From Gemmatimonas aurantiaca T-27 (lineage in GTDB: Bacteria > Gemmatimonadota > Gemmatimonadetes > Gemmatimonadales > Gemmatimonadaceae), in the NCBI RefSeq assembly GCF_000010305.1, contig NC_012489.1:2549646-2613645 (forward strand): a stretch of DNA of 64,000 bases. The letters run 5' to 3'. Under the pieces are notes generated by a model. It saw only the letters and a program-made list of their open reading frames with translations, searched no databases and had not been told where the DNA came from. Of the stretch, positions 15,240 to 20,305 are shown piece by piece. Numbering within the stretch: position 1 is the stretch's first letter; each line of letters opens with the position of its first letter. The position numbers were made by a program, and so were the translations under genes.

Positions 15240-15251
15240 CCCCCCCCCCCC
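15240..15251. repeat. Homopolymer of 12 cytosines
   Basis: An uninterrupted C12 run lies between a TACAAT element (15224-15229) and the start of the response-regulator gene (GTG 15260 or ATG 15266). Runs of this kind change length by slippage and could vary promoter-to-start spacing. They are also error-prone in sequencing. Confidence 0.85.
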
Positions 15252-15259
15252 GAACCCGT

Positions 15260-16607
15260 GTGCCCATGTACGTACTGGTTGTCGACGATGAGCCCGCACT
15301 GCGCGAAGTGCTCTCCCAGCGATTGACAAGCTGGGGCTATCGCGTAGCCACGGCGGGTGACGTACAGGAAGCCGAGACGTTGCTGAATACCTCCGAACCG
15401 GATCTGGTGCTCAGCGATGTGGTATTGCCTGGCCTCTCCGGCCTCGATCTGCTGCGGCGCTTCAAGGCGCGGAACGCGGCGTTGCCCGTTGTGCTGATCA
15501 CCGCACATGCCAATGTCGACGCCGCCGTGGAGGCCATGAAAGCGGGCGCGACCGACTTCCTCACCAAACCGATCGACACGGCCACCCTGCGTGCCGTGCT
15601 CGAGTCGGTGCGCGTCGATCAGCGTGAGCGGAAGGCCGCCCGCTCACTGGACGAAGCGCTGCAGGAACCCGCCACGGGTGGACTGATCGGGTCCAGTGCG
15701 GCAATGCGCGACGTGCGCGCAATTGTCGCTCATCGCGTCCACCGATGCCGGCGCGCTCATCACGGGCGAAAGTGGCACAGGCAAAGAAGTGGCTGCCCGA
15801 ACCATCCATGAGCTGAGCACACGCGCCTCGCAGCCCTTTGTGGCCATCAACGCAGCGGCCATTCCAGAGGGCTTGATGGAATCGGAGATCTTCGGCCATG
15901 AACGTGGCGCATTCACCGGTGCCGTGAGTTCCCGCGCCGGCTGCTTCGAACAGGCCGATCGCGGCACGTTGCTGCTGGACGAACTGGCCGAGATGCCGAT
16001 CGCACTGCAACCGAAATTGTTGCGGGTGCTCGAGGACGGCCGGGTACGGCGTCTCGGATCGGCCCGCGAGGCGGCCTTCGATGTGCGGGTCATTGCGGCC
16101 ACCAACCGCGACCCGATGACGGCGGTGGACGAGGGGAAGCTGCGCGCGGACCTGATGTACCGTCTGAATGTGTTCAGTATCGTGTTGCCGGCGCTGCGCG
16201 AACGCACAGAGGACATTCCCTTGCTCGCCCGCCATTTCATTCACCTGTTCAACCACAAACACGGCGCGGAAGTGCATGCGATGCGGGAGACGACCATGGA
16301 CCGTCTGCAGGCATGGCATTGGCCCGGCAACGTCCGCGAACTGCGCAATGTGATCGAGCGATCCGTGGTGATTGCTCGACATGGATGGATCGAGCCGTCG
16401 CATCTGCCCCCTCACATCGGCGCGGCAAAGCCCACCGGTCACTCGCTCGAGCTTCCGGCTCACACCACACTGGCCGAGGCAGAGCGACTCCTCATTCGCA
16501 CCACATTGGAGCGCACGGGCAACAACAAGGCCGAGACTGCGCGTCTACTCGGGCTCGACGTGAAGACCATTCGCAACAAATTGCGCAGTTGGGCGCTCGA
16601 CGGGTGA
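15260..16607 (+). pseudogene. Sigma-54-dependent response regulator (NtrC family), frameshifted
   Basis: Two frames together encode one NtrC-type protein of about 448 residues. Frame one gives a receiver domain (VLVVDDEP, phospho-acceptor Asp in VLSDVVLPG, Lys in FLTKP). Frame two gives the AAA+ sigma-54 domain (Walker A GESGTGKE, intact GAFTGA loop, RADLMYRLNVF) and a C-terminal Fis-type helix-turn-helix (NNKAETARLLGLDVKTIRNK). The break falls at 15725-15735, between DVRAIVA and IASTDAGALITGE. Loss of two bases, or gain of one, explains it. All catalytic motifs on both sides are intact, and the kinase and lipoprotein genes following are undamaged. A sequencing error or a recent mutation is therefore more likely than old decay. 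No Shine-Dalgarno precedes either start. Confidence 0.85.
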
Positions 16608-16614
16608 GTCACCG

Positions 16615-18090
16615 ATGACGGTTGCCCGACGACTATGGGTGGTACTGGGGGTGAATGTTGCCCTGCTCGGCGCGGTGGAGCTCTATCACCTTCGCGCCCT
16701 GCACCGCGTGGTCCGCACGACGGAACGGCTGACCGATGTGTCCACCAGGGTGGTCCTGGCTCAGGCACGGCAGAACGAGCGCATTGTGTCGCTCGATGAA
16801 TCGCTGGCCAAATATGCCGTGACACGTGATCGCGGATACCTGACCAAGTCCGCAACCGTGCGCGCGGAGTTTTCGCAGGAGTTGGACAACCTGCTGGCGC
16901 TGCCGGTGAACGGTATGGAACGGCAGGCGCTGAGGGATGTCGCACATGCCTGGCAGCAGGTCAACGACATCGCAGCCCGTCCGGCACTGCAGGCGCCCGG
17001 CCGATCAGCGGCCGCGCAGAACGCCATGGATCTGCAGCGGGCGCTGGATTCCCTGCGATTGGCTGGGGAAGCACTGGGTGACGCTTCGCAACGGGCCATG
17101 CGTGAAGGAGCCTTCGCATCACGCGCCGTGGCCGACACGGCCGAGCGCGTATCCTGGATTGCCGCGGCCGGCGCGTTGCTGGTGGCCTTGATATCAGGGC
17201 TGGCACTCCGTCGCTCCATCACCAAGCCGCTGCGGGCCCTCAGCGCCGGCACACAGTCGGTGGCCCAGGGTCAGTTCGATCATCGTCTCCAACTCGAGTG
17301 GAGTGATGAATTCCGGCAGGTCGCCGGGGCCTTCAATACGATGACGGCGCGGCTCGGTGAACTGGATCGCATGAAGCGGGAGTTCGTGTCGAATGTCTCG
17401 CACGATCTCAAGTCTCCACTCGCGTCGCTGCGCGAAACCACCTCCCTGCTGCTGGACGAAGTCCCGGGTCCTCTCCGTGACTCTCAACGGCGCGTGCTGC
17501 TGCTCCAGCGCGAAAGCGCCGACCGACTGGGCGTGATGATCGCCAAGCTGTTGGATTTGTCACGCATCGAAGCCGGATTGCCACTGCAATACGAATCCAT
17601 CGCGGTGCAGTCGTTCATGGAGAATGCGGTGCAACATGCCCAGGCCTCAGGGCATGAGCGCGGTATACGCATACAGCTCCTTCGAAACGTCGCCGCGTCG
17701 GTGGTGCTGGTGGCCGATGCCGATCGTGTCCGTCAACTGGTGGACAATCTGCTGGAGAATGCCGTGAAGTTCTCGCCCCGCAGTGACGTGGTATCGGTGG
17801 ATCTGGCAACCCACGGGTCGACGCTGATGCTGTCGGTGGCGGATCGTGGGCCCGGTGTAGAGCGGGAGGATGCCGAGCGCGTCTTCGATCGGTTCTATCA
17901 AACAGCGGCCGGTCGCGCCGTGAGCGGCCGTGGCACGGGATTGGGACTGACCATTTGCCGCGAGGTCGTGCATGCGCACGGAGGACACATTGCCGTTTTG
18001 GCACGAGATGGCGGTGGAAGCGTGTTCGTGGTAAAGCTGCCTGGCCTTTCATCGACCGTCGTTGCGCCGCACGGCGAGGCGGCCGCATGA
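16615..18090 (+). CDS. Membrane sensor histidine kinase
   Basis: The 491-residue product has an N-terminal helix (residues 6-25) and an extracytoplasmic, mostly helical sensor region (about 30-178). A second helix (about 180-199), HAMP (200-250), a dimerisation domain with phospho-acceptor His263 in SNVSHDLKSPL, and a C-terminal ATPase follow. The ATPase shows an N box (DNLLENAVKFS), G1 (DRGPGVE) and G2 (GRGTGLGL). It follows the regulator by 7 bases and overlaps the lipoprotein gene by four (ATGA), so the three form an operon. It presumably phosphorylates the sigma-54 regulator. The helical-bundle sensor gives no clue to the ligand. Confidence 0.93.
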   Translation: MTVARRLWVVLGVNVALLGAVELYHLRALHRVVRTTERLTDVSTRVVLAQARQNERIVSLDESLAKYAVTRDRGYLTKSATVRAEFSQELDNLLALPVNGMERQALRDVAHAWQQVNDIAARPALQAPGRSAAAQNAMDLQRALDSLRLAGEALGDASQRAMREGAFASRAVADTAERVSWIAAAGALLVALISGLALRRSITKPLRALSAGTQSVAQGQFDHRLQLEWSDEFRQVAGAFNTMTARLGELDRMKREFVSNVSHDLKSPLASLRETTSLLLDEVPGPLRDSQRRVLLLQRESADRLGVMIAKLLDLSRIEAGLPLQYESIAVQSFMENAVQHAQASGHERGIRIQLLRNVAASVVLVADADRVRQLVDNLLENAVKFSPRSDVVSVDLATHGSTLMLSVADRGPGVEREDAERVFDRFYQTAAGRAVSGRGTGLGLTICREVVHAHGGHIAVLARDGGGSVFVVKLPGLSSTVVAPHGEAAA

Positions 18091-18719
18091 CCGCGTCCCA
18101 TCGCACGCGTCTTGCACTCTTCGCGACGTTGTTCGTTACGTCGGGATGCGCCCGCAGTGTCTTTCAGCAGCAAGTGCGGGCCGGTCAATGGCAGTTGGCG
18201 GCCAGCACTTTCCGCAATGATTCGCTGTTGTTGCGTGACAGCGAGGCCGTCAGGCGAGTGGCGCGTATTCATGCGATGCCCGACAGTGCCACATGGGATC
18301 CGGAACGCGCGCTGGAGCTGCTGCGTGTGTCGAGGATCTACATGACTCCCGAGAAAGTGCCAGAAGGAGACGTTCGGCTGGAGCGACTGCTGCAGCTCAT
18401 CGTGCAGGAGCGAACGGCACATCGCACCATCCGTGAGGCGCTCCAAGATTCCGTCAGGCGGCAGGAAGGTGTACTGGAGGAGCTTCGTCGCGAGCACGAT
18501 CGCCTGCGTGCGACGAGTTCAGCCTCGGACAGTGAGCGCGTGCTGCTGCAGCGATTGGTTGGCCGTCTCGAAGCCGACCTGCGAGATCGGGAGATGCAGT
18601 TGGCCACATTGCGCACGGAGCTCGAGCGCCTCAAAGCGATCGACCTGTCGCGACCGCCACGACCAACGCCAATGATCGAGCCGCAACGCGAACGTGGCGC
18701 CACTCCGCCGGGGCGCTGA
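18087..18719 (+). CDS. Coiled-coil lipoprotein of the two-component operon, QseG-like in position
   Basis: The 210-residue product has a lipoprotein signal (lipobox VTSGC, cysteine near residue 21). A region with alternating charged and hydrophobic residues follows. A long coiled coil lies at about residues 105-190 (ERTAHRTIREALQD, EELRREHDRLRAT, LEADLRDREMQLATL), and then a Pro/Arg-rich tail. I recognise no sequence family. Gene content (sigma-54 regulator, kinase, coiled-coil lipoprotein) matches the enterobacterial QseF/QseE/QseG set, in which the lipoprotein contacts the kinase. That parallel is inference from context only. The ATG overlaps the kinase stop. Confidence 0.82.
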   Translation: MTASHRTRLALFATLFVTSGCARSVFQQQVRAGQWQLAASTFRNDSLLLRDSEAVRRVARIHAMPDSATWDPERALELLRVSRIYMTPEKVPEGDVRLERLLQLIVQERTAHRTIREALQDSVRRQEGVLEELRREHDRLRATSSASDSERVLLQRLVGRLEADLRDREMQLATLRTELERLKAIDLSRPPRPTPMIEPQRERGATPPGR

Positions 18720-18758
18720 ACCAGCGCTCCAACGAAGTTGACGCCACGGGCCTCACAC

Positions 18759-18799
18759 GAGGGTGGTACGGACGTGCCCAAGGCACGTCCGACGCCCTC
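18759..18799. terminator. Bidirectional terminator between convergent genes
   Basis: GGACGTGCC and GGCACGTCC form a 9-bp stem with a 3-base loop, extended outward by GAGGG/CCCTC. It lies in the 81-base gap between the lipoprotein gene and the convergent secreted-protein gene. T-runs are weak on both sides. Confidence 0.65.
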
Positions 18800-18800
18800 G

Positions 18801-19181
18801 TCACTCCGCTGGAGTGACCTTGACTTCACCAGCACAACTGGTCGCGCCACCGGTGAGCGTCAGTGCCCACGCGCCAGCCGCCGCACCACTCGCATCCACC
18901 TTCAGGGTGAAGTTCTTGTTGTCAGCACCCTTGGTCACGGAGCTCACCTTGATGTTGCTCTCGCGCGCGATGTCTGCCTTGGGCTGTTCCGTCAGCTCCT
19001 CAGAGAGCGTCACGTTCACTTCCTGCTCGCCCGGGCGCACCGCAAGCGCTTGGGAAACGGTCGCCGAGCATGCCGCTCCGAACGGCGGCACCGGCGCGGG
19101 CTTGGCGCCGACGGCAGAACTCGTGAGCACCACCGCCGCAATGGAGAGTCCAGCGAATCCAGCAGAGAGTCGGTTCGTCAT
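18801..19181 (-). CDS. Small secreted protein, unknown, under a sigma-54 promoter
   Basis: The 126-residue product has a clear Sec signal peptide (about residues 1-26, ending SSAVGA). The mature domain is about 100 residues, beta-rich in look (EQEVNVTLSEEL, NFTLKVDASGAAAGAWALTLTGG), with two cysteines that could form a disulfide. No family is recognised. AGGAGG precedes the ATG by 4 bases, and a consensus sigma-54 promoter lies about 77 bases upstream. Regulated, high-level expression in the cell envelope is the natural reading. It converges on the regulator-kinase-lipoprotein operon, whose regulator is the obvious candidate activator. Confidence 0.78.
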   Translation of the reverse strand: MTNRLSAGFAGLSIAAVVLTSSAVGAKPAPVPPFGAACSATVSQALAVRPGEQEVNVTLSEELTEQPKADIARESNIKVSSVTKGADNKNFTLKVDASGAAAGAWALTLTGGATSCAGEVKVTPAE

Positions 19182-19257
19182 ATGGCCTCCTGGCACAAAA
19201 GAACTTTGGTAGGAATGCTGGCATGACGGTTATCGTCTTCCAGTCGACTCCTTACAA

Positions 19258-19273
19258 AGCAACCCGCGTGCCA
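19258..19273 (-). promoter_or_regulatory. Sigma-54 (-24/-12) promoter
   Basis: On the reverse strand TGGCACG, four bases, then TTGCT match the sigma-54 consensus exactly (GG at -24, GC at -12). Transcription would begin near 19247, about 66 bases before the start codon of the small secreted protein at 18801-19181. Confidence 0.85.
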
Positions 19274-19322
19274 GAAGCCTTTGGGCAGGCAATCCATTCA
19301 GAGCAAAGCACTTACCACCGTT

Positions 19323-19396
19323 CTCGAGAGATCCGCCGCGCACAGCGAATCGGGGAATCAGGGAATTTTTCCCTGCGCGCGACGGCACTCTCGAGG
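19323..19396. promoter_or_regulatory. Candidate activator-binding region for the sigma-54 promoter
   Basis: About 50-120 bases upstream of the sigma-54 promoter are three dyads: CTCGAGAG near 19323, a palindrome CAGGGAA-TTT-TTCCCTG at 19359-19375, and CTCTCGAG near 19388. Enhancer-binding proteins normally bind such repeats 80-150 bases upstream. The central palindrome could instead be a weak terminator for the hydrolase gene ending at 19415. Confidence 0.4.
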
Positions 19397-19414
19397 GGAA
19401 TTTTCGAATGGCCT

Positions 19415-20305
19415 CTACCGCACGTGTTGGCGGAAAAAGGCCACGGTGCGCTCCCAGGCGAGCTTGGCGGCGGCCGCGTCATATCGCGGCGTGGTGTCGT
19501 TGTTGAAGCCGTGCTGCGTACCGGGATAGAGGTGGCGCTCATAGGCAACGTTGGCTGCCTTGAGCGCCGTCTCGAAGTCCGGCCAACTCGCGTTGATGCG
19601 CGGATCGTTCTCGGCGGACTGAATCATGAGCGGTGCCTTGATCTTCGGCACATCGGCGAGATTCGCCGACGATCCATAGAACGGCACGCCAGCCGAGAGG
19701 TCCGTGCCTAGTTGGGTGGCAAGAAAGTTGACCATGCCGCCGCCGTAGCAGAAACCGACGGCGCCGATCTTCCCACTGCATTCGGGGCGATTCTTGAGGA
19801 AACGCGACGCGGCGATGAAGTCCTGTTGGGTCTTTGGCTGTTCGAGTTTGGGGAAGAGTTCGCGAGCCTTCTCTTCGTCACCGGGATAGCCGCCCAACGG
19901 AAACAAGGCGTCCGGGGCAAGCGCCACGAATCCGTCTACCGCAAGGCGACGGGCAATGTCTTCGATGTGTGGATTGAGCCCGCGGTTTTCATGGATGACG
20001 AGCACACCCGGCATCTTGCCCGAACGTCCTGTGGGGCGCGCGAGATACCCGCGCGCGGTGCCATAACCATTGGGCGACGGGAATTCGATGTAGTCCTGTT
20101 CGATGCGCGTATCGTCAGGCTTGATGACCTGTGCCTCGAGAAACTTCGGGCTCAGTTGATCGAGCAGCATCGCGGCGGTGACGCCACCGACCGCGTATTT
20201 CGCCGCCTTGTCGAGGAAGGTGCGGCGGTCGATACCGCCGTGCACATACGCATCGAACAGGATGAGCAGTTCCTGATCGAAATCATGCGCGTTCTTACGT
20301 TCCAT
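19415..20305 (-). CDS. Dienelactone hydrolase family protein
   Basis: The 296-residue alpha/beta hydrolase carries the Cys-Asp-His triad of this family: Cys186 in GFCYGGG, Asp234 in SAENDPRIN, His265 in GTQHGF. An N-terminal helical segment (IDRRTFLDKAAKYAVGGVTAAMLL) before the hydrolase domain resembles a Tat-type or membrane-directing signal, so it may be exported or anchored. The founding activity is hydrolysis of dienelactone in chloroaromatic breakdown; homologues of this longer type are not assigned a substrate. The ATG at 20305 was preferred over one at 20356, which would overlap the next gene's control region. It is divergent from coaBC. Confidence 0.9.
   Translation of the reverse strand: MERKNAHDFDQELLILFDAYVHGGIDRRTFLDKAAKYAVGGVTAAMLLDQLSPKFLEAQVIKPDDTRIEQDYIEFPSPNGYGTARGYLARPTGRSGKMPGVLVIHENRGLNPHIEDIARRLAVDGFVALAPDALFPLGGYPGDEEKARELFPKLEQPKTQQDFIAASRFLKNRPECSGKIGAVGFCYGGGMVNFLATQLGTDLSAGVPFYGSSANLADVPKIKAPLMIQSAENDPRINASWPDFETALKAANVAYERHLYPGTQHGFNNDTTPRYDAAAAKLAWERTVAFFRQHVR

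Follow-up and report, generated by a model that had tools for sequence, protein, structure and literature searches.

The stretch of DNA analysed in this work (the window, 64,000 nucleotides) comprises positions 2549646-2613645 of the single-contig genome of Gemmatimonas aurantiaca T-27 (4,636,964 bases). It contains, on the plus strand, the gene of an NtrC-type regulator in two pieces (15260-15811 and 15696-16607), followed by the genes of a sensor histidine kinase (16615-18090) and a coiled-coil lipoprotein (18087-18719) and, facing them on the minus strand, the gene of a 126-amino-acid predicted secreted protein (18801-19181), which we call SEC and propose as the target of the regulator. Upstream of the SEC gene, also on the minus strand, lie a predicted sigma-54 promoter (19258-19273) and a candidate upstream activating sequence (UAS, 19353-19373). 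Comparison with related genomes makes it quite probable that these parts form a self-contained envelope-sensing unit of Gemmatimonadota, in which the activator would act on the sigma-54 promoter, and the promoter would drive SEC.

The promoter sequence, TGGCACGCGGGTTGCT (TGGCACG-N4-TTGCT, exact), agrees with the sigma-54 consensus TGGCACG-N4-TTGCW at all 12 of 12 positions, including the -24 GG and -12 GC elements. The original prediction was right about this match and about the strong ribosome site and signal peptide of the gene behind it: GGAGG precedes the SEC start codon (ATG 19181), and the N-terminus, judged by eye, is signal-peptide-like. The distance between promoter and start codon, given there as 77 bases, is 76 bases. 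Transcription of SEC would be expected to start at about 19247, and the RpoN gene is present in the genome. A 10/12 site at 19302-19317, considered as a second promoter, was set aside; it overlaps the central conserved block of an alignment of element-promoter regions (A4, 13 rows), not the promoter columns.

It is the comparison with relatives that makes the 19258-19273 site convincing. The relatives were 29 other genomes of the genus and 395 genomes of the phylum Gemmatimonadota. SEC was not found in the 29 genus genomes, nor was the kinase at E <= 1e-40, and footprinting within the genus was therefore impossible. In the phylum set the regulator has orthologues (E <= 1e-95) in 24 genomes, all 24 of which encode RpoN, and SEC has homologues (profile A1, E <= 1e-4) in 12. 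Eleven of these 12 also possess the regulator, an overlap with a hypergeometric P of 3.7e-14 (5.5e-13 without the window's genome). The layout regulator-kinase-lipoprotein with a convergent SEC gene is identical in the window and in genomes G107, G065 and G213. Nine further genomes gave marginal SEC matches (E 0.002-0.01), which were discarded: the nine include none of the 24 regulator genomes, and none of them reached E <= 1e-4 with the profile, so the matches were judged to be noise.

Upstream regions were scored for 11 SEC genes from 10 of the 12 SEC genomes (G172 and G235, with interrupted or partial matches, were left out). The best site reached at least 9/12 at seven of the 11 genes, with scores of 12 in the window, 11 in G218 and on contig 1 of G170, 10 in G065, G243 and G358, and 9 in G286. 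The combined P of the SEC upstream sites was 3.8e-7, or 9.8e-6 if the window was omitted. Strong sites persist even where SEC and the regulator are on separate contigs (G218, contig 1 of G170, G358), and the promoter GG and TGC are invariant in 13/13 rows of A4. At 8 of the 13 loci (L079, L116, L118, L119, L120, L122, L131 and L136) a CAA-N4-TTR sequence resembling the IHF consensus lies 25-29 bp upstream of the -24 box; it is absent from the window, and the count has no chance control.

The second conserved feature is the candidate UAS of the regulator, GGGAAAAATTCCCTGATTCCC, which stands 100 bp upstream of the -24 box. Its full pattern is present in a single copy in the window's genome and is held by 4 of the 395 phylum genomes. 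Upstream of SEC, the window, G107 (one mismatch), G065 and G213 all show the core, GGGAA-N3-TTCCC, with a -24/-12 site following 99-100 bp later. These four loci, where the element was first seen, together with 24 neighbourhoods fetched later make up the 28 regulator loci compared, and an element-promoter pair at a spacing of 97-105 bp was recognised in 13 of them, a count that admits looser matches. In the 24 later neighbourhoods a pair was defined as an element with at most one mismatch plus a site of at least 8/12 with -24 G and -12 GC. Of 20 such pairs, seven fell at 97-105 bp, where 0.31 would be expected if spacing were uniform; simulated loci averaged 0.40, with at most 4 in any of 40 runs, and six control elements gave 0, 0, 0, 1, 0 and 0 pairs. 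Searched genome-wide, the combined pattern has 8 occurrences across the 24 regulator genomes, of which 7 adjoin the regulator; the reversed pattern has one. In the window's genome the pattern search, taken as a test for a single target, gave one site, looser sites not being counted.

The dyads at 19323-19396 that had been proposed as the enhancer do exist (CTCGAGAG is found at 19323, CTCTCGAG at 19388, and GGGAATTTTTCCC lies in the interval), and a conserved element is indeed located there, but the outer CTCGAGAG/CTCTCGAG arms are not conserved in A4 and were rejected. The conserved candidate enhancer, as judged from the alignment, is the inner GGGAA/TTCCC palindrome.

These results suggest the following course of events. 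In response to a presumed envelope signal the NtrC-type regulator would be phosphorylated by a membrane kinase, whose activity the lipoprotein of the following gene probably adjusts; the regulator would bind GGGAA-N3-TTCCC about 100 bp upstream and make sigma-54 polymerase open the promoter at 19258-19273, leading to synthesis of the small secreted protein SEC. The comparison itself establishes the genes and their linkage, the promoter, the element with its spacing, and the frameshift in the assembly; we infer from there that the regulator binds the element, that it is phosphorylated, that lipoprotein and kinase make contact, that the signal comes from the envelope, and what role SEC has. Related lineages would use the same set of regulator, kinase and promoter to drive another, mostly exported, protein, which would make the target a replaceable plug-in.

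The search for the same promoter-gene pair in relatives, suggested by the original prediction, was successful: SEC stands behind 5 of the 13 promoters (window, G107, G065, G213 and G243). The target is not always this secreted protein; in relatives OmpA-family lipoproteins, other exported proteins or FeoA take its place. OmpA-family lipoproteins lie behind two of the promoters (G089, L116 4522-5178; G368, L124 7427-8077), and exported-looking proteins without a Pfam family behind four (G322, a second G089 locus, G071 and G072). Two of the latter, from G322 and G089 (L117 6534-7139 and L136 11925-12446), are similar in make-up, and those of G071 and G072 are identical, the Pfam scan having covered the G071 protein of this pair. 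Nothing convincing was found behind the promoter of G338. G243 has four regulator-type copies (L122, L137, L138 and L139), and SEC adjoins only one of them. It seems to us an evenly balanced question whether the locus is best described as a conserved cassette of sensor, lipoprotein, activator and promoter in which evolution has exchanged the effector gene (two-cysteine beta protein, OmpA-family lipoprotein, other exported proteins) behind an enhancer and sigma-54 promoter that stay fixed, a one-target envelope response whose activator has only just been broken here.

Several observations weigh against a self-contained unit with SEC as its output. G172 has SEC without the regulator at the cut-off used, and the two are on different contigs in G218, G230, G286, G358 and for one copy of G170. 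A recognisable element-promoter pair is absent at 15 of the 28 regulator loci. The best sites upstream of SEC in G107, G213 and G230 score 8/12, a value often reached by chance, and the second SEC copy of G170, which adjoins the regulator, has a best site of 6/12, which amounts to none. Behind the promoter of G235 there is a FeoA-like protein, which is not exported. Counting of consensus matches had to be rejected as proof of the promoter: the whole genome contains two exact sigma-54 sites, and with at most one mismatch there are 46 sites vs. 72 for the reversed control pattern, and in the window 18 matches with at most two mismatches vs. 15.9 in shuffled sequences. The consensus match is by itself not above chance and near-matches are not enriched, thus the significance of the 19258-19273 site comes from its conservation in relatives and not from the pattern match alone. 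Finally, the receiver frame of the regulator, open from 15260, stops at 15811, and the AAA+ and DNA-binding part (15696-16607) is in a different frame. The self-contained unit in which the regulator turns on one secreted protein is favoured by the co-occurrence (11/12), the conserved spacing and the 7 of 8 pairs beside the regulator, but its activator is frameshifted in the window.

This frameshift deserves closer attention. The receiver piece starts at GTG 15260 or ATG 15266 and matches Response_reg (E 8e-33); the second piece matches Sigma54_activat (E 5.5e-63) and HTH_8 (E 2e-10), and its reading frame contains GAFTGA, the Walker A sequence GESGTGKE and the Fis-type helix-turn-helix. All three domains of an NtrC-type protein are therefore present, divided between two frames instead of forming a single polypeptide. 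An NtrC-type regulator with an intact GAFTGA loop had been predicted next door to the promoter; the loop, the Walker A motif and the helix-turn-helix are there, but the gene, as assembled, is broken between receiver and AAA+, and although it belongs to the same unit, the kinase and lipoprotein genes stand between it and the promoter. In all 27 relative copies receiver and AAA+ are in one open frame. Identity to the AAA+ domain of the window's regulator is 65-69% for the regulators of G107, G065 and G213, against 44-54% for the genus regulators listed for comparison.

The frameshift is either real decay or a sequencing error, so that this strain could have a switch that is off or stuck, or one that is in fact intact. 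A real frameshift might mean that the switch has been lost here, or that an AAA+ fragment is produced which lacks the receiver and differs in activity. The strain from which the unit was described may therefore be one in which it does not work. A decayed unit, with the regulator a pseudogene and SEC silent or driven by another enhancer-binding protein or by the receiver-less AAA+ fragment, is in our judgement a serious competitor, if somewhat less probable than its opposite. It would agree with the contrast between the divided gene here and the intact copies elsewhere, with the eight other enhancer-binding proteins of the genome (E <= 1e-60 to the window's AAA+ domain), and with the absence of the kinase, at E <= 1e-40, from the 29 other genus genomes. 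Against it, the kinase, the lipoprotein, the promoter and SEC look undamaged, as do the catalytic motifs of the regulator, and this suggests either that the change is very recent or that sequencing introduced it. A run of 12 C residues at 15240-15251 (plus strand), the sole C or G run of at least 10 in the 64 kb, is located just before the regulator start, where slippage (phase variation) might affect the regulator.

It is unlikely that the envelope-sensing unit is a true member, in this phylum, of the QseE/QseG/QseF (GlrK/GlrR) family. As described in the portion of PMC6075780 that deals with E. coli, the kinase QseE is stimulated by the lipoprotein QseG, and QseF, together with IHF, acts at the UAS TGTN12ACA on sigma-54 promoters, for example that of glmY beside the operon. 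The portion just cited supports a likeness in the HAMP-type kinase, the lipoprotein encoded in the same operon, the NtrC-type regulator and the link to the envelope (PMC6075780), and in both systems the sigma-54 target gene immediately adjoins the operon. Among four E. coli kinases GlrK is closest to the kinase of the window (127 bits vs. 92, 82 and 65; 26% identity over 321 amino acids). However, the lipoprotein, suspected from its C-terminal end to be a QseG homologue, was rejected as such (hhalign probability 0.8%), thus only the type of lipoprotein is alike, and the regulator is slightly nearer to AtoC and ZraR than to GlrR. The target of QseEGF is a small RNA whereas here it is a secreted protein, the conserved element here is GGGAA-N3-TTCCC instead of TGTN12ACA, and the order kinase-lipoprotein-regulator is replaced by regulator-kinase-lipoprotein.

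Somewhat less probable still is the idea that a different protein recognises GGGAA-N3-TTCCC and that the regulator binds elsewhere in the region. A second conserved block is indeed recurrent in A4 between element and promoter (TAA-N-TC-N-TTG, then CAATG-N2-TTACG), which speaks for this idea, but in the regulator genomes the element-promoter pair is nearly confined to regulator-side loci (7/8), and its spacing of about 100 bp corresponds to the usual distance of enhancer sites from the promoter. It is very improbable that TGGCACG-N4-TTGCT matches by chance and that an ordinary promoter of the sigma-70 type serves SEC: the pattern is not enriched genome-wide and the other exact site of the genome falls inside the region spanned by a different enhancer-binding protein gene, but site and spacing are conserved at 12 relative loci, SEC genes on regulator-free contigs have high-scoring sites, and no sigma-70-like promoter was found in 18700-19450.

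The remaining components of the proposed unit can be described briefly. The kinase has HAMP, HisKA and HATPase domains; when contigs were scanned with the kinase alignment (A2), the 80 loci retrieved were distant kinases, and none of their titles pointed to this phylum. The start of the lipoprotein gene overlaps the kinase stop, and its product has the lipobox TSGC and the C-terminal sequence ELERLKAIDL. In its family (A3, 11 sequences) the Cys of the lipobox is invariant and the LKxIDL end conserved, and the position of the gene is the same in relatives. We propose the lipoprotein as the third component of the unit, which had been predicted, incompletely, as kinase, regulator and one target. 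Between the convergent lipoprotein and SEC genes a strong hairpin (18720-18803; predicted minus-strand fold, -43.4 kcal/mol) is a possible shared transcription end; no T-run terminator was called there. SEC has two invariant cysteines, C38 and C116. No Pfam family was found for it, and its best match among the sequences of solved structures was an S-layer protein (E 0.27). A single-sequence AlphaFold model of low confidence (pLDDT 60, pTM 0.48) is all-beta with eight strands; no Foldseek match of this model reached E <= 0.001 (the best, an amylase, had E 0.1), and to call SEC 'Ig-like' would be a guess.

If correct, the assignment provides for Gemmatimonadota a sigma-54 circuit with a named activator, candidate element, promoter and target. 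We found no description of this module, or of any such sigma-54 circuit in the phylum, in the open-licence papers covered by our searches; the main text of PMC12316311, in the portion consulted, has no word beginning Gemmatimon, and Francke et al. 2011 (PMC3162934), in the sections consulted, name Gemmatimonas once, for figure placement, and do not describe the module. The theme of those sections, sigma-54 as controller of the bacterial exterior (PMC3162934), fits the exported or envelope targets found here. With its promoter retained and the gene under it swapped, the unit would give direct access to the question of how a one-target response acquires a new output.

It is instructive to compare the module also with ZraS/ZraR-ZraP. 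ZraR is reported, in the part of PMC8249747 concerned, as a single-target regulator, and on that description (PMC8249747) the two systems would share an NtrC-type regulator with essentially one target, an exported protein whose gene lies alongside. The divergent layout of ZraSR-ZraP is found also in G089, G322, G368 and G243. The zraSR operon as annotated is without a lipoprotein gene, whereas the unit described here has one. ZraP is a zinc-binding protein with a helical fold; SEC shows no relation to it, belongs to no Pfam family and is strand-rich in its low-confidence model. By analogy, the module may work like QseEGF, which is nearest to it in logic, or like ZraPSR, which is nearest in outcome.
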